Assembly: GCA_016928395.1 (NCBI GenBank)
Contig: JAFGKV010000021.1
Coordinates: 1-57,493, forward strand
Origin: Candidatus Fermentibacterota bacterium
Lineage (GTDB): Bacteria > JAFGKV01
Direction of reading: 5' to 3'
Length of the DNA: 57,493 nucleotides
How positions within the stretch are numbered: position 1 is the stretch's first letter; each line of letters opens with the position of its first letter. The position numbers and the translations under genes are program-made. Positions 8,373 to 56,522 of the stretch are shown one piece after another. A model generated the notes under the pieces. The model saw only the letters and a program-made list of their open reading frames with translations, had not been told where the DNA came from and did not search any database.

Positions 8373-9544
8373 TGCAGCTTCCCTCTCAGGGCATCGGTGG
8401 GGTTCATTCGTGCGATTCTCCGCGAAGGCACATAGCTGACGACGGCCGTGGCCAAGGTCACCAGCAGCGCCGTGGACACCACCAGGCCCACCGTGTATAC
8501 AGGATAGAGGGTTTGCGCCATGGCCATGCCGAACTCACTGGCTTCCATGGGTATGGTCCATCCCGCCTTGGCCTGCCAGGCTAGGAAGGGCAGGCCGTAC
8601 AGCGTGGCGACGAAGGCGGCCAACACCGCGTGCATGGCGCCTTCCACGGTGAAGAGCCCAACAACCTCCTTTCGGGTATAGCCCAGGGCGATGTATGTGC
8701 CGATTTCTTTCTGGCGCCGGAAGATGGAGAGGACCTGCGTGTCAAAGATGGCCAGCATGGCCAGCAAGAGCAGGACGCCGTAGAAGATCGACTGCCCCAC
8801 TGTCTTTGCCTTGATCATGTCATCTACCTGGCGAGTCAGCTCCGCCTTCGTCTTCAATATCCATCCCTCGATTTCCGGCCTCTGGGACCGGCCGTCACGA
8901 AAGGTCAGGATGGTCGCCTGGTCGTGCATCACCGCCATCTTTCGCAGGCGTTCCAGCGGGACATACACCTGCCCGGCTTCCGCAGACGGCACATTGGAGG
9001 AGAAGACCGCCGTGATCAGGATCTGTGCGGCATCGAACGTGCCGTTGGTATCACGCCAACGGATCATCACCCGGTCGCCCTGTCCAAGGCGGGTCCCGTT
9101 GGCCATGACCGCCCCGATCATGGCGGGGATGGCATCGGTATCGGCGTCGAGTTCTCCGGTGGGCAGCTTCCAGATGGTCTGGGCGGGGTTGATGCCTTTG
9201 ATCACGACAGATTGCATGCGACCCCGGGGAAAGATGTGCCCCGGCACGACCAGAACAGGCTCCATGTCCCCGGCTTGGATCTCGTCTTTGACGTGGGAGG
9301 GAACCGGGGCATGGCTGTCGCTGAGGCTCAGGGGGTCATAGGGATCGTAGAGGTGATGCCAGTATTGCCCGCCGCCGATCTCGTAGTCGGTCATGTCATT
9401 CTTGGCCTGGTGATCCCAGCCGACCATGATTCCCTTGAGCCAGATTATCACGACAAAGGAAAACGACAGCACGAGCGCGTTCAACCAGGTGCGCAGCCCG
9501 GCCCCGATCAAGTTGCGCACGGCCAGTCTTAGTGCGAGTAGCAT
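8369..9544 (-). CDS. ABC transporter permease, FtsX/MacB type (first permease)
   Basis: A 391-residue inner-membrane protein with an N-terminal helix (about residues 22-42, LNALVLSFSFVVIIWLKGI), a periplasmic domain (about 45-265), and three C-terminal helices. FRRQKEIGTYIALGYTRKEV is the conserved cytoplasmic coupling loop. Unlike many MacB relatives there is no fused ATPase. The periplasmic domains of the two permeases differ clearly, so a heterodimer is likely. The gene starts six bases after the ATPase gene and ends overlapping the next permease by four bases. Confidence 0.9.
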   Translation of the reverse strand: MLLALRLAVRNLIGAGLRTWLNALVLSFSFVVIIWLKGIMVGWDHQAKNDMTDYEIGGGQYWHHLYDPYDPLSLSDSHAPVPSHVKDEIQAGDMEPVLVVPGHIFPRGRMQSVVIKGINPAQTIWKLPTGELDADTDAIPAMIGAVMANGTRLGQGDRVMIRWRDTNGTFDAAQILITAVFSSNVPSAEAGQVYVPLERLRKMAVMHDQATILTFRDGRSQRPEIEGWILKTKAELTRQVDDMIKAKTVGQSIFYGVLLLLAMLAIFDTQVLSIFRRQKEIGTYIALGYTRKEVVGLFTVEGAMHAVLAAFVATLYGLPFLAWQAKAGWTIPMEASEFGMAMAQTLYPVYTVGLVVSTALLVTLATAVVSYVPSRRIARMNPTDALRGKLQ

Positions 9545-9550
9545 TGCCGC

Positions 9551-10255
9551 CTAGTCTTTCCGGACGGTTTCGTCTCTGTCGACCCTGCCGTCGAGCAGGT
9601 AGATCATGCGGCGCAGATAGCCGATGACCTTGTCGTCGTGGGTGGCGAAGAGAAGGGTGGTGTGGAGTTCACGGTTCAGCGTTTCCATGGTCTTCAGGAT
9701 GTGATGGGAATTGGCCGCATCCAGATTGGCCGTTGGCTCGTCGGCCAGCACCAGCGGCGGTCGCTTGACCATGGCGCGGGCGATGGCCACCCTTTGACAC
9801 TCGCCGCCTGAGAGCTGGGGCGGCTTGGATTTCTCCTTGTCCACAAGCCCGACCCATTCCAGCGCATCCATGACCATCCTCCTGCGCTGGGAACCGTTGT
9901 GCTTCAACAGCAACAGCGGGAACTCCACGTTCTCGTACACCGTGTGCACCTGCAGCAGATTGTAGCTCTGGAAGATGAACCCTATGCTCTCTTTTCGAAG
10001 TTGGGCGGCTTCCTTGGCACTGAGTGTGCCGATGGAGTTGCCCAGTACGTTCACCCAGCCTTCGGTAGGTACATCCAGCGAACCGATTATGTTGAGCAGG
10101 GTGGTCTTGCCTGACCCGCTGGGGCCGACAAGACCGGCGAACTCGCCCTTGCCGAACGTCAGGGTGATTCCCCTGAGAGCCGTGAACTCCCCCTTACCCA
10201 TCGGAAACCGTTTCACGAGGCCTTGGATCTGTATGATCTCGCTAGTTCCGTTCAT
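9551..10255 (-). CDS. ABC transporter ATP-binding protein (LolD/MacB class)
   Basis: A 234-residue cytoplasmic ATPase. Walker A is GPSGSGKTT, the Q-loop is FIFQSYNLL, the signature is LSGGECQRVAIARA, Walker B is LVLADEPTANLD, and the switch His is in LFATHDDKV. The length and the ANLD text after Walker B fit the LolD/MacB/FtsE group. The frame is open upstream, but I chose the ATG at 10253-10255 (MNGTSEIIQIQGL) because it gives the family N-terminus and has AGGAG about 11 bases before it. An upstream start at 10303 would add 16 atypical residues. It is the first gene of the five-gene operon, preceded by a repeat-filled 808-base gap with no obvious promoter. Confidence 0.93.
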   Translation of the reverse strand: MNGTSEIIQIQGLVKRFPMGKGEFTALRGITLTFGKGEFAGLVGPSGSGKTTLLNIIGSLDVPTEGWVNVLGNSIGTLSAKEAAQLRKESIGFIFQSYNLLQVHTVYENVEFPLLLLKHNGSQRRRMVMDALEWVGLVDKEKSKPPQLSGGECQRVAIARAMVKRPPLVLADEPTANLDAANSHHILKTMETLNRELHTTLLFATHDDKVIGYLRRMIYLLDGRVDRDETVRKD

Positions 10256-47503: not shown

Positions 47504-49768
47504 CTACTGCCGATCGTGAAGCAGCCACAGCACGCGCTCCGGGGTCAGGGGAATCTCCCTCACTGGAACCCCCACGGCGTCACTCACTGCATTGCCGATG
47601 GCGGCGGCCACACCGATGAGCGAGGGTTCACCGATGCCCTTGGCGCCGAACGGCCCCCCCTTCCAGGGCTGCTCGATCACCTCCATCCGAATGTGGGGTG
47701 TATCGGCGATACCCGGGACCACGTAGTCGGTGAATCCCGGATTGTGGAGGATGCCCCCCCGCGTGACCAATGATTCAAAGAGCGCATAGCCCGCGCCCTG
47801 CACGATCCCCCCCTCGATCTGACCTCGCAAGCCCTCGGGAAAGATGACCCGCCCCACGTCGTGCACTGCCGTGACCCGTACAAGCCTCACGAGGCCCGTG
47901 CCCTCATCCACCTCCACCTCCGCTATGTGGGTCGTGTACGAATTAACGGCATAGGGTCGTCCCTGCCCCGTCGTCGCATCGTAGGGACGAGGCGGAGGGC
48001 GATAAAACCCTGTGGCGCTCATTTCGACACGCTGGGCATAGCAGAGGCCCACCAGATCGTCCCAGGTCATCACCTGGCCTGAGGAACGACTCACAACCAT
48101 TCCCTGCCGGATATCGGCATCGGCGATACCCTCTCTCCTGACAGTGCGCACCATCCGGAGCCGCAACGCCGCGGCAGCCCGGCGCGTTGGCATGCCCGCC
48201 ATGATCGTGCCCCGAGACGCCACGGTGGGCCCGCTGTCCTGCACCGCGTCAGTGTCCACATGGGCCACGACTACCCGCTCCTTGTCCACCCCAAGTTCCT
48301 CTGCCACGATCTGCGCCACGGCAGTCAGGAGTCCCTGGCCCATCTCAGTCAGACCCACCGCCACATTGACGCTGCCGTCTGCATTGATCGTGACCCTGGC
48401 GTGGCTTCGATCGTGGCGCTCGCCGCCCTTATGCAGGTTGCTCCCGTAGTAACTGGTGGCCACACCGACGCCTCGCAAGACCCGTTCGTGTTTCGTGTCC
48501 AGCCTCCTCGGCCGATACCCCGCCGCCCGCACGGCTCTGCGCAATGTCTGGAGTACCGGCACACTGCCCGTCAATACCTCTCCCGACGCCGTGACGCTGC
48601 CGGAACGCCACAGGTTCATCTCCCGAAGGAGAACTGGGTCTATTGCCAGTCGCCGCGCCAGTTCATCCACTTGGCGCTCCGTGGCAAAAGTAACCTGGGG
48701 AGCGCCGAACCCCCGGAACGCTCCTCCGAAGAGGCCATTGGTGTAGACAATCGTGGTGTGCACATCAACGGCGGTGAGCCCGTAGGGACCGCAGGCGGAG
48801 CTATTGCCCCGCTCGGCCACGACCACGCTTAGCCCGGCATACGCACCCGCGTCGTACAGCGCCTCGATCTGCATGCCCAGCATCCGGCCGCTGGAAGTTG
48901 CTGCCAGCCGGTGCGTGATTACGGTGCGGTGACGCTTGGTGGACCATCGGAAATCCTCGGCACGGTCATAGACAAGCCGCACGGGATGGCCCGACGCCGT
49001 GGCCAGGAGGGCCGCGCATGCTGCGACTTCGGAAGGATAATCCTCCTTGCCACCGAATGCACCCCCGGTACAGGCCTGTACGACCCGCACCATGCTCTGG
49101 GGATACCCCAGCACATCGGCCACGGCGCGGCGAACGTAGAAGGGACACTGGCACGTTGAGTAGACCACCATGCGCCCATCCACCCCCGGCACCGCCACAG
49201 CGCCCTGGGGTTCAAGGTAGGCATGCTCCTGGCAACCCGTGCGGTACTCGCCTTCGACAATCACATCGGCCTGGGCAAAGGCCGCATCAATATCACCCCG
49301 GACCACCTGCAGCCTGGCGACGATATTGCCGCCTTCATGAATGGACGGGGCGTCGGCGGACATGGCGTGACGGACATCCTCCACCACGGGCAAGGGTTTT
49401 AGATCGGCGGATACGGCATCTGCCAGAGCCCGGGCCGCCGCCCGCGTCGGCGCCGCAACGATGGCCAAGCGGTCTCCTGCGCTTCGCACGCGGTCACTGA
49501 CCAGAAGCGGCTGATCTCGTTGCACAATGCCTATCTGGTTGATGCCGGGCACGTCGGCCGCGACCATCGCCACACCCTCGGCGCGATCCACAGGGGGAAT
49601 CGTGATGCGCCGCACCAGGGCGTGGGCCACCGGCGGCGTTGCCACGGCGGCCTCCCACATGCCCTGAAACCTCAGGTCAGCCAGGAATCGGGCCTCACCC
49701 CGCACCTTGTCCGCCGCATCCACGCGATGGGCCGGCCGACCCACGCAGGAGAATCGCTGACGCGTCAA
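47504..49768 (-). CDS. Molybdenum hydroxylase, large (molybdopterin-binding) subunit
   Basis: A 754-residue xanthine-dehydrogenase-family subunit. The start of the fold is CVGRPAHRVDAADKVRGEAR. Cofactor-binding text includes QACTGGAFGGKEDYPSEVAA, GGAFRGFGAPQVTF and, at the end, GPFGAKGIGEPSLIGVAAAI, whose Glu is the catalytic base in this family. The CO-dehydrogenase motif VAYRCSFR is absent, so it is not a form I CODH. I chose a TTG at 49766-49768 that overlaps the small-subunit stop (TTGA) and has GGAGGAG just upstream. The 151 residues open further upstream are a shadow of the small-subunit gene. Substrate unknown; nearby nifS-selD suggests a selenium-dependent form. Confidence 0.93.
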   Translation of the reverse strand: MTRQRFSCVGRPAHRVDAADKVRGEARFLADLRFQGMWEAAVATPPVAHALVRRITIPPVDRAEGVAMVAADVPGINQIGIVQRDQPLLVSDRVRSAGDRLAIVAAPTRAAARALADAVSADLKPLPVVEDVRHAMSADAPSIHEGGNIVARLQVVRGDIDAAFAQADVIVEGEYRTGCQEHAYLEPQGAVAVPGVDGRMVVYSTCQCPFYVRRAVADVLGYPQSMVRVVQACTGGAFGGKEDYPSEVAACAALLATASGHPVRLVYDRAEDFRWSTKRHRTVITHRLAATSSGRMLGMQIEALYDAGAYAGLSVVVAERGNSSACGPYGLTAVDVHTTIVYTNGLFGGAFRGFGAPQVTFATERQVDELARRLAIDPVLLREMNLWRSGSVTASGEVLTGSVPVLQTLRRAVRAAGYRPRRLDTKHERVLRGVGVATSYYGSNLHKGGERHDRSHARVTINADGSVNVAVGLTEMGQGLLTAVAQIVAEELGVDKERVVVAHVDTDAVQDSGPTVASRGTIMAGMPTRRAAAALRLRMVRTVRREGIADADIRQGMVVSRSSGQVMTWDDLVGLCYAQRVEMSATGFYRPPPRPYDATTGQGRPYAVNSYTTHIAEVEVDEGTGLVRLVRVTAVHDVGRVIFPEGLRGQIEGGIVQGAGYALFESLVTRGGILHNPGFTDYVVPGIADTPHIRMEVIEQPWKGGPFGAKGIGEPSLIGVAAAIGNAVSDAVGVPVREIPLTPERVLWLLHDRQ

Positions 49769-50247
49769 GGCGTCTCCTCCATGAGCCGAGCCGCCCGACG
49801 CACGGCCCGTAGTATGGAAAGATAGCCTGTACAGCGGCAAAGATTCCCCTCCAAAGCGCGCACAATCTCGTCGTCCGTGGGGCTTGGATCTTCCTGCAAG
49901 AGCGCATACGTGCTCATGATGAACCCGGGCGTGCAGAAACCGCACTGCACGGCACCCTCCTCGATGAATGCCTGCTGAATCGGATGCAGCCCTTTGTCCG
50001 CCAAACCCTCGATGGTGACGATGCGGCCTCCCTGGGCCTCCAAGGCCAACACGAGGCATGAGTCCACAACCCGGCCGTCCAAGAGGACGGCGCAAGCGCC
50101 GCACTCCCCTTCCCCGCACCCCTCCTTGCAGCCCGTGAGCCCCAGGTCGCTCCGAAGCACATCCAGTAGACGGGCCGTGGGAAGCACCCGTAGGTTGACC
50201 GACTGACCGTTGACGGTGCATTCCAGAGGCATGGTATCATCGCTCAT
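49765..50247 (-). CDS. Molybdenum hydroxylase, small [2Fe-2S] subunit
   Basis: A 160-residue electron-transfer subunit. The plant-type cluster motif is GCKEGCGEGECGAC plus a later Cys (SCLV); the second, buried cluster is CGFCTPGFIM and CRCTGY. It carries electrons from the molybdenum centre to FAD. The start overlaps the FAD-subunit stop by four bases, and its stop overlaps the large-subunit start, so the three genes are translationally coupled in the order FAD, FeS, Mo. Confidence 0.96.
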   Translation of the reverse strand: MSDDTMPLECTVNGQSVNLRVLPTARLLDVLRSDLGLTGCKEGCGEGECGACAVLLDGRVVDSCLVLALEAQGGRIVTIEGLADKGLHPIQQAFIEEGAVQCGFCTPGFIMSTYALLQEDPSPTDDEIVRALEGNLCRCTGYLSILRAVRRAARLMEETP

Positions 50248-51074
50248 GGCGCACCCTCGTGCAGAAACCTCGTCACCAAAACCTTGACCACTGCCCTGCG
50301 ATACTCCGCCGATGCGCGGATGTCATCGACGGGGCTGCACTCTGCCGCCGCCAACCGGGCGGCTTCGGCGATCTCCGCGTCGCCAAGACGCCCCGTATCC
50401 GCGATAAAACGTTCCGCGCGCACCGCCCTGATGGGAGTCGGCGCCACCGCGCCCAAACCAAGACGAAGCGCACACCCTTCATCGAACACCGTCAGCAGGC
50501 CGGCTACGGCGACCCGAGAGATAAAATGACGGGAGCGGGGCCCGACTTTGCGGAACCATGGCCGGGAGTTCGGGGGAGGTCGAGGGACGATCACCGCCCG
50601 CAGCAACTCATCGTCACCAATCGCGGTCTGTTTGGGGCCGATCACGAATTCCCGTACCCGGAGCCGCCGTACGCCACAGGCCGAGACCAGCTCAACCTGC
50701 GCATCCAGAACCAGCAGGCTGAGCACCATGTCGGCGGCGGGAGACGCGGTGCACAGATTGCCGCCGACCGTGGCCCTGTTTCGAACCTGGGGGCCGCCAA
50801 GCCACGAGGCTGCGGATGCCAAGAGGGGAACCGCATCCCTGAGGTCGCGCGCGATGACGGATGCAGTGGTCATCGCGCCGATGTGTACGGCATCATCGCC
50901 AAGGGTGATGCCGTCCCACCCCAGGCGTCGCAAAGACACGAGGGAATCCGGCCAACCGGCTGCCCGGGCCGAGACCATGAGGTCGGTCCCTCCTGCCAGC
51001 GGCAGAGCGCCTCGCCCGAGTCTGCCCCTCAGCTGTAGGGCTTCGGCCTCATCGGTGGGACAGAAGTAGCGCAC
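50244..51074 (-). CDS. Molybdenum hydroxylase, medium FAD-binding subunit
   Basis: A 276-residue FAD subunit. The FAD pyrophosphate motif is LAGGTDLMV and the second is TVGGNLCTASPAAD; the C-terminal CO_deh_flav_C part follows. The GTG at 51072-51074 (V/M-RYFCPTDEAEAL) has a strong GGAGG five bases upstream and gives the standard family N-terminus and length. Open frame to 51263 is not family-like. It is the first gene of the hydroxylase operon, divergent from the barrel protein with a 145-base gap. Confidence 0.93.
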   Translation of the reverse strand: MRYFCPTDEAEALQLRGRLGRGALPLAGGTDLMVSARAAGWPDSLVSLRRLGWDGITLGDDAVHIGAMTTASVIARDLRDAVPLLASAASWLGGPQVRNRATVGGNLCTASPAADMVLSLLVLDAQVELVSACGVRRLRVREFVIGPKQTAIGDDELLRAVIVPRPPPNSRPWFRKVGPRSRHFISRVAVAGLLTVFDEGCALRLGLGAVAPTPIRAVRAERFIADTGRLGDAEIAEAARLAAAECSPVDDIRASAEYRRAVVKVLVTRFLHEGAP

Positions 51075-51151
51075 ATCATCCTCCGCGGGGGATCTGAACA
51101 GACTGTGTGGGTTTCCTCCAAGTATACACACACGCCCTTCGCCGTCATCTG

Positions 51152-51180
51152 TTTCCACAGAGGCCGTCTTGTCGTATACT
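51152..51180 (+). promoter_or_regulatory. Putative promoter of the peptidase/barrel gene
   Basis: TTTCCA (51152-51157) and TATACT (51175-51180) are 17 bases apart, giving a start near 51187 and a short leader with GGGAGG before the ATG at 51220. The -35 box is weak. Confidence 0.4.
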
Positions 51181-51219
51181 CCACGCATCACCGGAATGAC
51201 CAAGAGGACGGGAGGATTG

Positions 51220-54078
51220 ATGAAGAATTCAATGGTGTGGGCTCTCCTTGCCACGCTTCTCACAGCCAGCGCATCGGCCCAGTATTTCGGTCAGAACAAG
51301 GTGCAGTACCACCGGTTCCATTGGGAAGTGATTCACTCGGATCACTTCGATGTACACTATTACGGAGACACCCGTGAAGCGGCCCTCGATGCGACCAGGC
51401 TGGCAGAGCGGTGCTATTTCGAGCTTGCGGAACTCTTTGGGTACGAAGTACGAGAGCCGATCCCGTTGCTGCTGTATGCGTCTCACGGCCATTTCGCCGA
51501 GACGAATATCACTCCCTCGCTTATCTCCGAGGGCACCGGCGGCGTGACCGAACTGATCAAGCGGCGGGTGTTTCTGCCTTTCACCGGATCCTATGCGGAG
51601 CTCTCGCATGTGCTCAAGCATGAACTGGTCCACGCATTTCAGATCGATCGGCTCTTGGGCAGCGGCAAGAGCTTGCTAGGCAGTCAGGTCGTTTTCCCTC
51701 CCCTGTGGCTGATCGAAGGCATGGCGGAGTTCTACAGCATCGGCGAGGTCGACCCCAACACGGAGATGTGGCTTCGGGATGGCGCACTCAACGGCTATCT
51801 GGTCGATCTGCCAACTCTGGCCAATGTGGGAGACATCCGGGTCTACCGCTTTGGTCAGAGCATCCTGGCCTTCATCGCCGAGCGATACGGCATCGAGAAA
51901 GTCGGCGAATTGTGGACCAGGGTCATGAGCCAGACCCCGTTCGAAAAGAGTGTGGAGCGTACCCTGGGCATGTCGGTGGAAGACTTGTCGCGGAAGTGGC
52001 AGCTTCACGTTCGCCGCACGTATCTGCCCCAGTTGGAGGGCCGTGAGGCCCCGGCCGAGGCGGGCAGGCTCCTGGTGGGCGGCCCTGAGTCCCATGCCAA
52101 TTACAACCTCGCGCCATCTCTAAGTCCCGGTGGGAATCGGCTGGCCTTTATCTCCGATGAGAGCATGTTCATCGACCTCTGCGTACGCTCAGACGAGGGA
52201 GACATCAAGCGCCTGGCCAAGGGCGAACGTTCCGGCACCTTCGAGTCACTGCGGTTTCTCTCCACGTCCATGTCATGGTCGCCCGACGGGAAACTGATTG
52301 CGGTGTCAGTGAAGTCCGGCGGCAAGGAGGGGATCTACCTGCTGGACAGTGAGACCGGCCGGATCACACAACGTATCTTCCCCGACTTGGATGGCATTCA
52401 GGGGCCGGCTTTTAGCCCTGATGGGAACCACCTCGCCTTCGTCGGATTCTCCGGAGGCCAAAGCGATTTGTACCTGTACGAGTTGGCTTCTGAGGAGGTG
52501 ACACGGCTGACCGCTGATCGCCTTGCCGAACGGGACCCCGCCTGGTCGCCCGACGGATCCCGTCTGGCCTTCGCCACGGATCGCTCACCCTACACGGATT
52601 TTCACACGATGACCATTGCCGACTGGGGCATTGGCATCATGTCGCTGGACGATGGTTCAGTGGAGATGCTTCCACGGCTTCCGGGCAAGAACATCGATCC
52701 CTCCTTCTCCCCCGACGGCCGGTACTTGGCATTCGTATCTGATGCGGACGGCATCCCAAATCTCTACCTTTGGGATCTGGATTCCCGTCTCGTCGGCAAG
52801 ATAACCAACGTATTCACCGGCGTGGGAGGGCTCACGGAGTCAAGCCCCTGTCTCTCCTGGGCCCAGGAGGCTGACCGTATCGCCTTTTCCTCCTTCGAAG
52901 GTGGGCGGTGGAATATCTACTCCGTGGATGCTCCGGTGGAACGCGTCTCGGAATGGACGGAGGCTCCCGAGATGAAGGCCTTGACGACTCCCGTGCTGGC
53001 TGAGCTGCCAGACACCACGGACTTCGCCATTTCTCGTTACCGGGTCAGGTTCTCGCCCGACTACCTGGCAGGGGGTGCCATCTATGCGCAGAATCTCGGG
53101 CTCGCCGGAGAATCCTACGTATCGTTGAGCGATGTCCTGGGGAATCACACTATTACCATCGGCGCCGCCCTTTACGGTTCCCTCACCGATTCTGATCTTC
53201 TTCTGGGCTACACCAATCTGGCGCGACGGCTGAACTGGGGCGTGGCGCTATACCAATATCGCAACGATTACCTGCTATTCGAAGCATCCGATTCCGACGA
53301 GTACATACGCAATATCTACCGGGGAGGCGAACTGGGTCTCACTTGGCCGTTCTCAAGGTTCTCCCGGGTCGAGTGCAATGTGGCTCTGCTGTCGATTCAC
53401 CAGCGGACCTACAAACGATTCATCTGGGATCCATACTATCTGTATGAAGTCGACCGCGACAACTACTACTATGCTGAACCATCGGTGGCCTGGGTGACAG
53501 ACAACACGTTCTGGGGTTACACCGGGCCCATCTCAGGGCGTCGCACCAGGGTCGAGTTCTCCGCTGCCGCAGGGGACCTTCGCTTCCGCACTGGCGTCGC
53601 CGACCTGCGGCGCTACGTGAATATCTCCCGGGAGTACCTCTTTGCCTTCCGCGGGGTGTTCGGCTTCAGTGATGGCGACACGCCCCAGCGATTCAGCATC
53701 GGAGGCTCCCAGAGCTTGCGGGGCTACGGATCCGGCAGCCTCTCCGGGACCAGGGCCTTTCTAGCCAATGCGGAGTTCCGGTTTCCCCTGGTCCACAGGC
53801 TCTGGCTTGGGTTCCCTCTACCCTTGGACATCCGTGACATACGCGGCTGTGTCTTCCTGGACGGAGGCAGTGCATGGGATAACGGCAGTGTCTCGTTCTT
53901 CACGAAAGACGAGGAGACACGGTTGCCCAAGACCAAGGACCTCCTTGCTTCGTACGGTTTCGGGGCCCGCCTCAATTTAGGCATCTTTGTGCTGAAGTAC
54001 GACCTGGCCCGCCGCACCGATCTGGTCTCCAGCACGGGATCGTGGAAGTCGTTGTGGACCCTCGGAGCGGAGTTTTAG
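51220..54078 (+). CDS. Outer-membrane metallopeptidase / PD40 propeller / Omp85-like barrel protein
   Basis: A 952-residue exported protein. Signal peptide 1-20 (LLTASASA). Residues about 30-280 form a gluzincin-type peptidase MA domain: HELVH (134-138) supplies zinc ligands, and IEGMAEF (165-171) supplies the third Glu. Residues about 290-640 contain repeated PD40/TolB propeller blades (SLSPGGNRLAFISD, SWSPDGKLIAVS, AFSPDGNHLAFVG, AWSPDGSRLAFATD, SFSPDGRYLAFVS). The C-terminal 310 residues are a beta-barrel of the bacterial surface antigen (Omp85/BamA) type, with SIGGSQSLRGYGSGSLSGT and VFLDGGSAWD, ending in Phe. GGGAGG precedes the ATG. It may be a surface- or periplasm-facing protease anchored by its own barrel. 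It lies between the Mo hydroxylase and nifS-selD, but a shared role is not evident. Confidence 0.87.
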   Translation: MKNSMVWALLATLLTASASAQYFGQNKVQYHRFHWEVIHSDHFDVHYYGDTREAALDATRLAERCYFELAELFGYEVREPIPLLLYASHGHFAETNITPSLISEGTGGVTELIKRRVFLPFTGSYAELSHVLKHELVHAFQIDRLLGSGKSLLGSQVVFPPLWLIEGMAEFYSIGEVDPNTEMWLRDGALNGYLVDLPTLANVGDIRVYRFGQSILAFIAERYGIEKVGELWTRVMSQTPFEKSVERTLGMSVEDLSRKWQLHVRRTYLPQLEGREAPAEAGRLLVGGPESHANYNLAPSLSPGGNRLAFISDESMFIDLCVRSDEGDIKRLAKGERSGTFESLRFLSTSMSWSPDGKLIAVSVKSGGKEGIYLLDSETGRITQRIFPDLDGIQGPAFSPDGNHLAFVGFSGGQSDLYLYELASEEVTRLTADRLAERDPAWSPDGSRLAFATDRSPYTDFHTMTIADWGIGIMSLDDGSVEMLPRLPGKNIDPSFSPDGRYLAFVSDADGIPNLYLWDLDSRLVGKITNVFTGVGGLTESSPCLSWAQEADRIAFSSFEGGRWNIYSVDAPVERVSEWTEAPEMKALTTPVLAELPDTTDFAISRYRVRFSPDYLAGGAIYAQNLGLAGESYVSLSDVLGNHTITIGAALYGSLTDSDLLLGYTNLARRLNWGVALYQYRNDYLLFEASDSDEYIRNIYRGGELGLTWPFSRFSRVECNVALLSIHQRTYKRFIWDPYYLYEVDRDNYYYAEPSVAWVTDNTFWGYTGPISGRRTRVEFSAAAGDLRFRTGVADLRRYVNISREYLFAFRGVFGFSDGDTPQRFSIGGSQSLRGYGSGSLSGTRAFLANAEFRFPLVHRLWLGFPLPLDIRDIRGCVFLDGGSAWDNGSVSFFTKDEETRLPKTKDLLASYGFGARLNLGIFVLKYDLARRTDLVSSTGSWKSLWTLGAEF

Positions 54079-54249: not shown

Positions 54250-56451
54250 CTACTGCACAGAAATCCGGCCGTCCCCTTCCGTCGTGAAGCAGCCGATCTC
54301 CACGGCGTCTACACCCGCTCCGTGAAGTGCCTCAAGCGCCGCCTCCATCTGCTGCGGGGATATCGCGACCAGCAGGCCGCCTGAGGTCTGGGCATCGCAC
54401 GCCAGTAGCCGGTAGGTCTCTGATACGGCGTCGTGCCACGAGACGTGCGGAGCAACATGCTGTCTGTTGTTCAAGGTGCCCCCTGGGACAACACCCCCCG
54501 TGGCCAGCTCAGCCGCGCCTCCGATCAGCGGGAGTGCGCGATGGTCGATCTCGACGTTGACGTTGCTCCCCGCAGACATCTCGCGCAAATGCCCCAGGAG
54601 CCCGAAACCCGTCACGTCGGTACAGGCATGGACGTCAAAGGCCTTCAGGACCTCGGCCGCGGCTCTGTTGAGTGTGCCCATGACCTCCTGGATGATCTGC
54701 TCCTGCTCCCGGCTGAGCAGGCCGCGTTTCAAGGCGGTTGTCATGACGCCCAGGCCGAGCGGTTTGGTCAGAATCACACCATCGCCCGGAAGGGCCCCGA
54801 AGTTCTTCCACAGCCTGTCCGGATGGACGAACCCCGTAACCACGAGCCCGAACTTCGGCTCTGGATCGTCGATCGTATGCCCTCCGAGAATCGGGATCCC
54901 TGCCCGCCCGCATGCATCATGCCCGCCGCGCAGGATGTCTTCCAGTACTCGCAACGGAAGCCGGTTCGAGGGGAACCCCACGATACAGAGCGCGAAAGCT
55001 GGCTCCGCACCCATGGCATAGATATCGCTCAGCGAATTTGCTGCGGCGATGACGCCGAACTGGTAGGGATCATCAACCACCGGTGTAAAGAAGTCCACGG
55101 TCTGCACCACCGCCACGCTCTCCGTGATCCGGTACACCGCCGCATCGTCGGCGGTCTCGGTGCCCACTAGGACATTCGCATTCTCCCTCATCCGCGGGAG
55201 TGCCGCCAGAACCCGCTCCAGGGCTTGAGGCCGCAGCTTGCAGGCACACCCTAGCCCGCTGGTGAAGCGAGTGAGCCGTATCGTCTCATCTGAAGGCCTC
55301 GCGCATGACGTCTCGGCCTCGGGTCTCAGGCGCCGGATCACCCTGACTATCGCTTCCCCGGCCCGATCCACCTCGGCCTCGGTCAGCATCGCTCCGGTGG
55401 AAAAGCGTATGGTTCCCATAGCAAACTCAAGGGGTACATTCATGGCCGCCAGGGTCGGTGACATTTGCACCTCGTCGGCGTGGCACGCCGCACCTGCCGA
55501 TGCCGCCACCTCCGCCAGTTCCGACAGGATCATGGTGGCCTCAATGCCCCGGAAGCTCAAGCTGAGCGTGTTCGGCAGCCGCCTTTCCGGGTGGCCGTTC
55601 AGCCGCACATCAACGACACGCGCGACAATGCATTCATGAAGCCGGTCTCGAAGGCTGCGCATATGCGCAGCCCGCGACTCAAGATGCCTCGCGGCCAAGT
55701 CGCAGGCCGTTCCCAAACCGACGATTTCCAGCACATTCTCGGTTCCCGCGCGCCATCCTCGCTCGTGATTCGCACCGTAGATCAGCTTCTCCAGCTTCAC
55801 TCCCGTGCGAACATAGAGCGCACCGACTCCTTTCGGTGCGTAGAGCTTGTGGCCCGCGAGAGACAGCAGATCCACGCCCAATTCATCGACCTGCACCGGG
55901 ATCTTCCCCGCTGACTGCGCGGCATCGGTGTGCATGACAATCCCGTTACGCCGGGCGATGTCGGCGATTTCGCGAATGGGCTGCACTGTGCCGACCTCGT
56001 TGTTGGCGTGCATGACCGAGATGAGAATCGTCCCCGGGGTCAAGGCCCGCTGGATGTCCGCCGGATCCACCATGCCGTATTCGTCGACCGCAACCACGGT
56101 GATGCGAAAGCCTTGAGATGCCAGATAGGTGCATACCTCGCTGACCGCGGGGTGTTCAACCGCCGACGTGATGATGTGGTTGCCCTGCCCGCGTCTCGCA
56201 TGGGCGATACCGCGGATCGCCAGGTTGTTCGACTCCGTCCCGCCGCTGGTGAAGATGATCTCCTCGGCGTGGGCCCCCAGCATCTCGGCCACGTGCCGGC
56301 GCGCACGCTCCACCGCGGTTTTGGTGCGCGCTCCGTAGAGATGGCTGCTGGAGGGATTGCCGAAATGGGTCTCCAGGTAGGGGCGCATGGCTTCCACCAC
56401 CCCGGGATCCAACGGTGTCGTGGCATTGTAGTCCAGATAGATCGGATCCAT
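54250..56451 (-). CDS. selD: Cysteine desulfurase - selenophosphate synthetase fusion (NifS-SelD)
   Basis: A 733-residue fusion. Residues 1-380 are a NifS/IscS-type, PLP-dependent desulfurase: YLDYNATTPLD start, SGGTESNNLAI, HTDAAQSAGKIPVQVD, PLP lysine in LSLAGHKLYAPKG, and catalytic Cys in ASAGAACHADEVQ. From about 390 a complete SelD follows: RLTRFTSGLGCACKLRP (catalytic Cys, not selenocysteine, and Lys), DDAAVYRI, TVDFFTPVVDDPYQFGVIAAANSLSDIYAMG, DVTGFGLLGHL, and CDAQTSGGLL. The desulfurase or lyase half could hand selenium directly to SelD, which makes selenophosphate from ATP. The ATG at 56451 gives the family start and has GGGGGA upstream; a GTG at 56508 with GGAGG is an alternative. 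No stop or frameshift separates the halves. Confidence 0.95.
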   Translation of the reverse strand: MDPIYLDYNATTPLDPGVVEAMRPYLETHFGNPSSSHLYGARTKTAVERARRHVAEMLGAHAEEIIFTSGGTESNNLAIRGIAHARRGQGNHIITSAVEHPAVSEVCTYLASQGFRITVVAVDEYGMVDPADIQRALTPGTILISVMHANNEVGTVQPIREIADIARRNGIVMHTDAAQSAGKIPVQVDELGVDLLSLAGHKLYAPKGVGALYVRTGVKLEKLIYGANHERGWRAGTENVLEIVGLGTACDLAARHLESRAAHMRSLRDRLHECIVARVVDVRLNGHPERRLPNTLSLSFRGIEATMILSELAEVAASAGAACHADEVQMSPTLAAMNVPLEFAMGTIRFSTGAMLTEAEVDRAGEAIVRVIRRLRPEAETSCARPSDETIRLTRFTSGLGCACKLRPQALERVLAALPRMRENANVLVGTETADDAAVYRITESVAVVQTVDFFTPVVDDPYQFGVIAAANSLSDIYAMGAEPAFALCIVGFPSNRLPLRVLEDILRGGHDACGRAGIPILGGHTIDDPEPKFGLVVTGFVHPDRLWKNFGALPGDGVILTKPLGLGVMTTALKRGLLSREQEQIIQEVMGTLNRAAAEVLKAFDVHACTDVTGFGLLGHLREMSAGSNVNVEIDHRALPLIGGAAELATGGVVPGGTLNNRQHVAPHVSWHDAVSETYRLLACDAQTSGGLLVAISPQQMEAALEALHGAGVDAVEIGCFTTEGDGRISVQ

Positions 56452-56522
56452 GGCTTCCCCCTTGCTGAGGTCGAGCACAAAGACGATATCCGTGTCGGTG
56501 AGCCGCACGGTTCTTTCCCTCC

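Follow-up and report, generated by a model that had tools for sequence, protein, structure and literature searches.

A WD40-type Omp85 protein with a predicted gluzincin-type zinc peptidase domain in Candidatus Fermentibacterota and its relatives in other bacterial phyla

Results

A single gene encodes a predicted peptidase, propeller and barrel

The stretch of DNA analysed here (the window) comprises the 57,493 nucleotides of contig JAFGKV010000021.1 from a Candidatus Fermentibacterota bacterium (assembly GCA_016928395.1), and this report concerns one gene on its forward strand, at positions 51220–54078. The gene lies in an open reading frame spanning 51169–54078, in which the ATG at 51220 gives a protein of 952 residues followed by a stop codon, with homologues of full length found elsewhere. 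A preliminary description of the window, made from the letters and their translated frames, had given the same span and had read the product as a metallopeptidase, propeller and outer-membrane barrel in one chain; its motifs HELVH (residues 134–138), IEGMAE (165–170) and SLRGY (832–836) were all recovered at these positions.

As modelled, the arrangement of a peptidase, a TolB-type propeller and an Omp85 barrel in a single chain is almost certain. The AlphaFold2 model of the full-length protein, with a predicted local distance difference test score (pLDDT) of 90.2 and a predicted template modelling score (pTM) of 0.89, was built on an alignment (A3) of 72 rows, which omits loci L061, L072, L092, L097, L098, L099, L108, L111, and L114 as partial, cut or fused frames. 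Residues 1–21 (51220–51282), which begin MKNSMVWALLATLLTASASAQ, form an apparent cleavable signal peptide without a lipobox cysteine when judged by eye, and are modelled at a pLDDT below 50 with a helix over residues 4–20. The mature N-terminus opens with the nearly invariant YFGQNKVQY (residues 22–30, 51283–51309), with segment 22–34, in which FGxNKVQY lies, averaging 67.7% identity to the window protein, above all three domains. The gluzincin-type zinc peptidase domain delimited by models and profiles (residues 35–282, 51322–52065) is followed by the propeller (residues 283–590, 52066–52989), identified by Pfam, model and structure match, and by the barrel (strands from residue 612 to 948, 53053–54063), identified by Pfam and model. 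The chain ends in LGAEF (54061–54075), the last residue being F, W or Y in 71 of the 72 rows. Mean identity to the window protein is 39.0% for the peptidase domain, a modest lead over the 35.5% and 33.6% of the other two domains.

The peptidase domain retains a gluzincin-type active site

Peptidase_MA_2 (PF13485) matches residues 67–264 of the whole protein with an E-value of 9e-5 and 22.8 bits, and the domain alone with 27.1 bits, against a cut-off of 32.4; the family matches 64 of the 72 rows at E-values up to 1, the best at 3.1e-17, and a weaker BSP match also falls at the N-terminus. The model of the isolated domain (pLDDT 91.6) resembles Grimontia collagenase (7wss; Z 17.8, 232 residues, 4.1 Å), collagenase H (Z 16.9), lugdulysin of family M30 (Z 16.3), and M1 aminopeptidases (Z 15.0 for IRAP and below), all of them gluzincin-type zinc peptidases, with collagenase G the best match by Foldseek (E 6.4e-5). 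M48 is named in none of the 50 PDB rows listed for the domain, which of itself excludes nothing. A profile of the domain also finds the 7wss sequence (E 9.5e-4), with HELvH aligned on HEYVH, EGlaEY on EGVAEY, and the tyrosine segment YkgG on YRWG. HELVH (51619–51633) would supply two zinc ligands and the catalytic glutamate, E166 in WLIEGMAEF (residues 163–171, 51706–51732) is the likely third ligand on the alignments and the profile, and the invariant Y209 (51844–51846), which matches the collagenase tyrosine, is the likely catalytic tyrosine. The title of the lugdulysin entry 7bb9 names a mutated pair, E242 and Y315, spaced by 73 residues, compared with 74 between E135 and Y209 of the window protein.

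Residues H134, E135, H138, E166, G167, E170, and Y209 are identical in all 72 aligned rows, despite overall identities to the window protein of just 31–43% for 70 of the 71 homologues and 78% for the remaining one, and the identity of the active site thus exceeds what chance would give. HExxH is encoded in the gene of all 80 named loci. A second sample was drawn from the 107 peptidase places described below; it comprises 100 of these, without the window, G197:C45:11027, G157:C140, G112:C57, G141:C1, G189:C55, and G053:C59, and five of its copies have exact counterparts among the rows of the first. The zinc site and tyrosine (five residues) are retained in 98 of these 100 copies, which were found by a profile made from intact sites that still caught one lost site; the exceptions are L231, a fragment covering HExxH alone, and L227. 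The latter (G236:C21:226829-227632) is a paralogue in which the zinc site is lost and the barrel still matched. As E170 varies in nine of the 98 copies, E166 is favoured as the third ligand.

The zinc peptidase site claimed in the preliminary description therefore stands, the HELVH helix lying in a predicted gluzincin-type fold with the five residues unchanged in 72 of 72 rows. HExxH, a downstream glutamate, the tyrosine, and a predicted thermolysin-like fold together place the domain among the gluzincins (clan MA(E)), and the conservation of the site suggests that the protein is very probably an active peptidase. Membership of M9 and of M48 was rejected: the window domain scores 14.8 bits against the M9 collagenase profile (PF01752), below the cut-off of 26, and has no match to the M48/BepA profile (PF01435) at E-values up to 1, the M48 profile matching eight of the 72 rows weakly (best E 0.016).

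The C-terminal part is modelled as an Omp85 barrel without POTRA domains

The PD40 blades noted in the preliminary description correspond to six PD40 stretches (whole-protein E 9.9e-32, Pfam) in a propeller that matches TolB (2ivz; Z 27.5, 243 residues, 2.2 Å). Pfam places an Omp85 domain over residues 653–931 (E 1.8e-13; 51.1 bits, cut-off 24), and 16 strands were counted from the model elements between residues 612 and 948. The barrel matches BamA (8bnz; Z 23.8, 306 residues, 4.5 Å), a chain of the SAM complex (9nk7; Z 23.4), and TamA (8us1; Z 21.7). An Omp85-type barrel at the C-terminus, as first proposed, is thus well supported by a high-confidence model, with its size revised from 310 to about 340 residues, counting from the first strand at residue 612.

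Omp85 proteins bear a loop-6 motif between their eleventh and twelfth strands. In the model SLRGY (53713–53727) sits between strand 11 (residues 807–819) and strand 12 (residues 845–863), with G835 invariant and R834 present in at least 90% of the 72 rows. Ahead of this RG motif, loop 6 is 28–48 residues long in 42 of the rows and three residues long in the other 30, the window protein having the short form. The suggestion of a 16-strand Omp85 fold lacking POTRA domains also agrees with the model, in which residues 22–602 are taken up by peptidase and propeller, and POTRA is absent among the 18 Pfam matches of the protein at E-values up to 1. By its Pfam score, its 16 strands, and its matches to BamA, SAM, and TamA, the protein falls within the barrel-based definition of Omp85/TpsB proteins (PMC4104836), and it also carries the loop-6 RG used as a criterion for them, whilst it lies outside the narrower wording of PMC11116518, which requires at least one POTRA domain. 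With an N-terminal WD40/TolB-like propeller joined to an Omp85 barrel, it also has the architecture of the WD40-Omp85 subfamily.

The three parts occur together across many phyla

The named loci were found with N-terminal-region patterns made from eight closer sequences, which biases them toward peptidase-bearing members; at least 572 of the 595 pattern-matched stretches in the genome collection encode relatives, and the named loci are the best 80 of these. By record titles the relatives belong to Gemmatimonadetes, Zixibacteria, KSB1, Marinimicrobia, Calditrichota, LCP-89, Eisenbacteria, Latescibacterota, Aminicenantes, and others. Among 193 sampled genomes, mostly one per family, a profile of the peptidase domain (E up to 1e-20) finds it at 107 places in 70 genomes. 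A profile of the propeller and barrel without the peptidase was run on an equal number of related genomes to offset the bias of the patterns. Of the 81 barrel places among the matches listed, 79 lie no more than 2.5 kb from a peptidase match on their contig, with G154:C88 being a case where the match runs on in a second frame, and the two without a nearby peptidase match (G206:C268 and G131:C344) lie at contig ends. Because 79 of the 81 barrel places listed pair with a peptidase, the three-part architecture is the rule in this branch rather than an oddity of the window.

The architecture of more distant members is less clear. L025 and L030, which are cut loci, show peptidase and PD40 matches and no barrel in their partial sequences, and L024 has no Pfam match, with a barrel match later in its frame (G035:C14). 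The peptidase frames of L024 (G035:C14) and of G230:C61:265660-266388 encode approximately 1520–1530 residues compared with the usual 950–1100, and in the long G035 frame the barrel match is close to the end, so an extra part may intervene.

In a quick tree, which has long branches, omits L108 and L111, and serves solely to show the clustering of phyla, the Zixibacteria sequences come together in one supported group and those of Marinimicrobia (Fidelibacterota) in another, and the window protein is placed beside a record from Candidatus Eisenbacteria to which it is 78% identical. A virus scan with the protein returned one stretch matching a pattern and none encoding a relative.

The genome has a separate BamA

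Seven Omp85 places were found in the genome, including the window gene and a paralogue on contig C25, which is 31% identical to the window protein, has the same three parts, and passes the Peptidase_MA_2 cut-off (47.8 bits compared with 32.4). BamA proper is encoded on contig C299 and scores 475.8 bits where the TIGR03303 cut-off is 297.15; the second gene downstream of it is LpxC/FabZ. The window protein scores 44.6 bits against the same cut-off and was rejected as the BamA of this genome; since C299 holds a separate BamA, it adds to BamA rather than substituting for it.

Discussion

Relation to described proteins

Judged from its sequence, the window protein is a WD40-type Omp85 protein with what appears to be a real zinc-peptidase site that is intact in nearly every copy. 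Of the ten Omp85 subfamilies described by Heinz and Lithgow (2014; PMC4104836), one is WD40-Omp85, which those authors compare to BamA fused with BamB and group with the non-POTRA architectures. This subfamily shares the TolB-like WD40 propeller ahead of an Omp85 barrel; however, a word search of the main text of PMC4104836 finds no word beginning “peptidase”, whereas nearly all members found here have a gluzincin-type domain ahead of the propeller. The “Metallo” Omp85 group of that paper also joins an Omp85 barrel to an N-terminal metal-dependent enzyme domain. The paper labels it a metalloprotease, yet the defining domain is PF00149, in Pfam Metallophos, a calcineurin-like phosphoesterase and not a peptidase. 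The window protein was accordingly not placed in this group, PF00149 being absent among its 18 Pfam matches at E-values up to 1, and the “metalloprotease” label on a subfamily defined by PF00149 seems to need correction.

Among other proteins, PlpD likewise has an Omp85 barrel carrying a periplasmic hydrolase domain (PMC11116518), with a lipase and one POTRA domain where the window protein has a peptidase and a propeller. BepA, an M48 zinc peptidase which acts on proteins assembling at BamA (PMC8423444 and PMC13067283), is comparable in how it works, bringing an HExxH-plus-glutamate zinc site to the side of an Omp85 machine that faces the periplasm (PMC8423444); it is, however, a separate periplasmic protein with a TPR domain, and the window protein has no M48 match. 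The M9 collagenases and M30 peptidases share the fold, with HExxH, the third-ligand glutamate, and the tyrosine aligning with 7wss, but lack an Omp85 barrel, and the window protein scores under the M9 cut-off. BamA and BamB together provide an Omp85 barrel and a β-propeller, but as separate proteins, with POTRA domains and without a peptidase. A literature search, scant on subscription papers, found no description of a peptidase, propeller, and Omp85 barrel in one chain.

To our knowledge, the Omp85 proteins studied so far comprise assembly factors and translocases together with a single lipase. A broad and conserved branch whose metallopeptidase site is genuine would extend this range by an enzymatic class and, if the branch is active, would mean that an Omp85 barrel can have proteolysis at the outer membrane integrated into it. 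As the peptidase domain occurs in 70 of the 193 sampled genomes, the branch may be a common and little-studied part of envelope upkeep, with the phyla concerned including Gemmatimonadota, Zixibacteria, Marinimicrobia, and Calditrichota.

A proposed mechanism and its alternatives

From the computed fold, active-site residues and conservation we infer a location, an orientation, an activity and substrates for the protein, with the reading we favour, by a modest preference, being that of a zinc endopeptidase of the cell envelope that is secreted, anchors itself to the outer membrane and faces the periplasm. That the protein anchors itself in the outer membrane by its own barrel, as the preliminary description supposed, is the best reading of a prediction. 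Following export by Sec and removal of the signal peptide, the 16-strand C-terminal barrel would enter the outer membrane with both ends periplasmic, and the propeller is predicted to hang under the barrel and to bear the gluzincin domain, which would keep the active site periplasmic and its spacing from the barrel constant. The propeller, the barrel or both may then capture envelope proteins for the peptidase to cut, the likeliest clients being unfolded or stalled outer-membrane proteins, or lipoproteins. One chain would thereby do the job of BepA, which is docked on BAM, as though BepA, BamB and BamA had been combined.

The two ends of an Omp85 barrel both face the periplasm. The enzyme domain of PlpD has been shown to remain periplasmic (PMC11116518). 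On these two grounds the peptidase is placed in the periplasm, and a periplasmic active site is likely. By analogy, the simplest use of such a layout would be the cutting of envelope proteins near the outer membrane, although that its purpose is envelope quality control is a tentative suggestion. A fuller version, in which stalled barrel proteins or lipoproteins are caught at the seam of the barrel, presented by the propeller and cut by the gluzincin domain, is speculative and rather doubtful; such a surveillance machine would stand in for or supplement the separate BAM-BepA pair in many diderm phyla, and work with MCE lipid transport in some lineages.

The protein might instead be an outer-membrane protein assembly factor, a BamA-BamB-like fusion that inserts or moves proteins and whose peptidase merely trims or regulates. 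Such a role was proposed for WD40-Omp85 by Heinz and Lithgow (PMC4104836), and the Omp85-type barrel with its loop-6 motif and C-terminal aromatic residue would suit it. The absence of POTRA domains from the model and the presence of a dedicated BamA in the genome make this unlikely, and a main rather than a minor role for the peptidase fits better since its site is kept almost without exception.

Partnership with MCE/Mla lipid transport, with a lipid route ending at the barrel in the outer membrane and being controlled by the peptidase, is suggested by the MlaE permease in the flanks of 14 of the 80 named loci. In L063, L068, L071, L073, L080, L084, and L087, MlaE is the immediate downstream neighbour in the same orientation, and an MlaF-like ATPase comes after it; in L113 it is next downstream on the same strand before the contig end; in L102, L106, L107, L108, and L111, the downstream MlaD and MlaE are encoded on the opposite strand, three of these loci also having a clustered ATPase; and in L074, MlaE is ~5 kb away. 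By the density of MlaE ~0.4 cases would be expected for 50 loci, but these 50 were picked after the neighbourhoods had been seen, contain all 14 cases, and include related loci that are not independent; on the quick tree, without L108 and L111, the Mla states change five times. The broader sample weakens the connection considerably, with MlaE adjoining the gene at G207:C6 alone among 107 peptidase and 93 MlaE places in 70 genomes (at G141:C1 it lies ~13 kb from the peptidase place), and the window gene itself is not beside Mla genes. A general Mla partnership was therefore rejected, and we regard the MCE/Mla account of the protein as quite unlikely; we read the Mla operon as lineage-limited, compatible with an envelope role without defining it. 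Near the Mla genes that follow the peptidase gene in L071, positions 8663–9937 encode a 425-residue protein with mates in L063 and L068 and no Pfam or NCBIfam match.

A surface protease, with the N-terminal domains crossing the barrel, facing outward, and degrading environmental protein, is very unlikely. In its favour, the nearest folds are those of bacterial collagenases, which are secreted enzymes, and PlpD was once held to be surface-located (PMC4104836). The enzyme domain of PlpD has since been shown to be periplasmic (PMC11116518); furthermore, the peptidase and propeller, ~570 residues, would need to pass through the barrel, and the whole chain was modelled with a pTM of 0.89. An inactive peptidase fold serving as a chaperone or scaffold, as the single lost site at G236:C21 might suggest, is highly improbable, since the ligands, the catalytic glutamate and the tyrosine are all retained in 98 of the 100 copies and in every one of the 72 rows.

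Several observations weigh against a secreted, self-anchoring envelope peptidase devoted to quality control. The genome has other candidates for quality control in two M48 peptidases, of which one or both begin, as judged by eye, like secreted proteins; the neighbours of the window gene, namely a molybdenum hydroxylase, an AMP-binding acyl-CoA-synthetase-like gene, and NifS-SelD, give no envelope hint; and the Mla linkage is confined to certain lineages. Additionally, recurrent neighbours elsewhere include the non-envelope tRNA-ribosyltransferase (nine loci) and RadA-like ATPase (eight loci), and the literature search found no member with a reported activity, substrate or location.

Neighbouring genes

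Neighbour gene clusters were identified from one or two scanned representatives each, with a MurA-type cluster in eight of the 80 loci and an LpxH-like cluster, whose representative scores under its cut-off, in nine; like MlaE, these two clusters point to an envelope context in some lineages. Within the window, a three-gene molybdenum hydroxylase (molybdopterin, 2Fe-2S, and FAD subunits) lies at 47504–51263 on the reverse strand, divergent from the peptidase gene, and a similar set adjoins the gene in the same-family genome G002, as judged by eye from frame order and start. At 54250–56508, also on the reverse strand, a 752-residue frame fuses a NifS-type cysteine desulfurase (residues 23–396) to a SelD selenide, water dikinase (residues 411–720).

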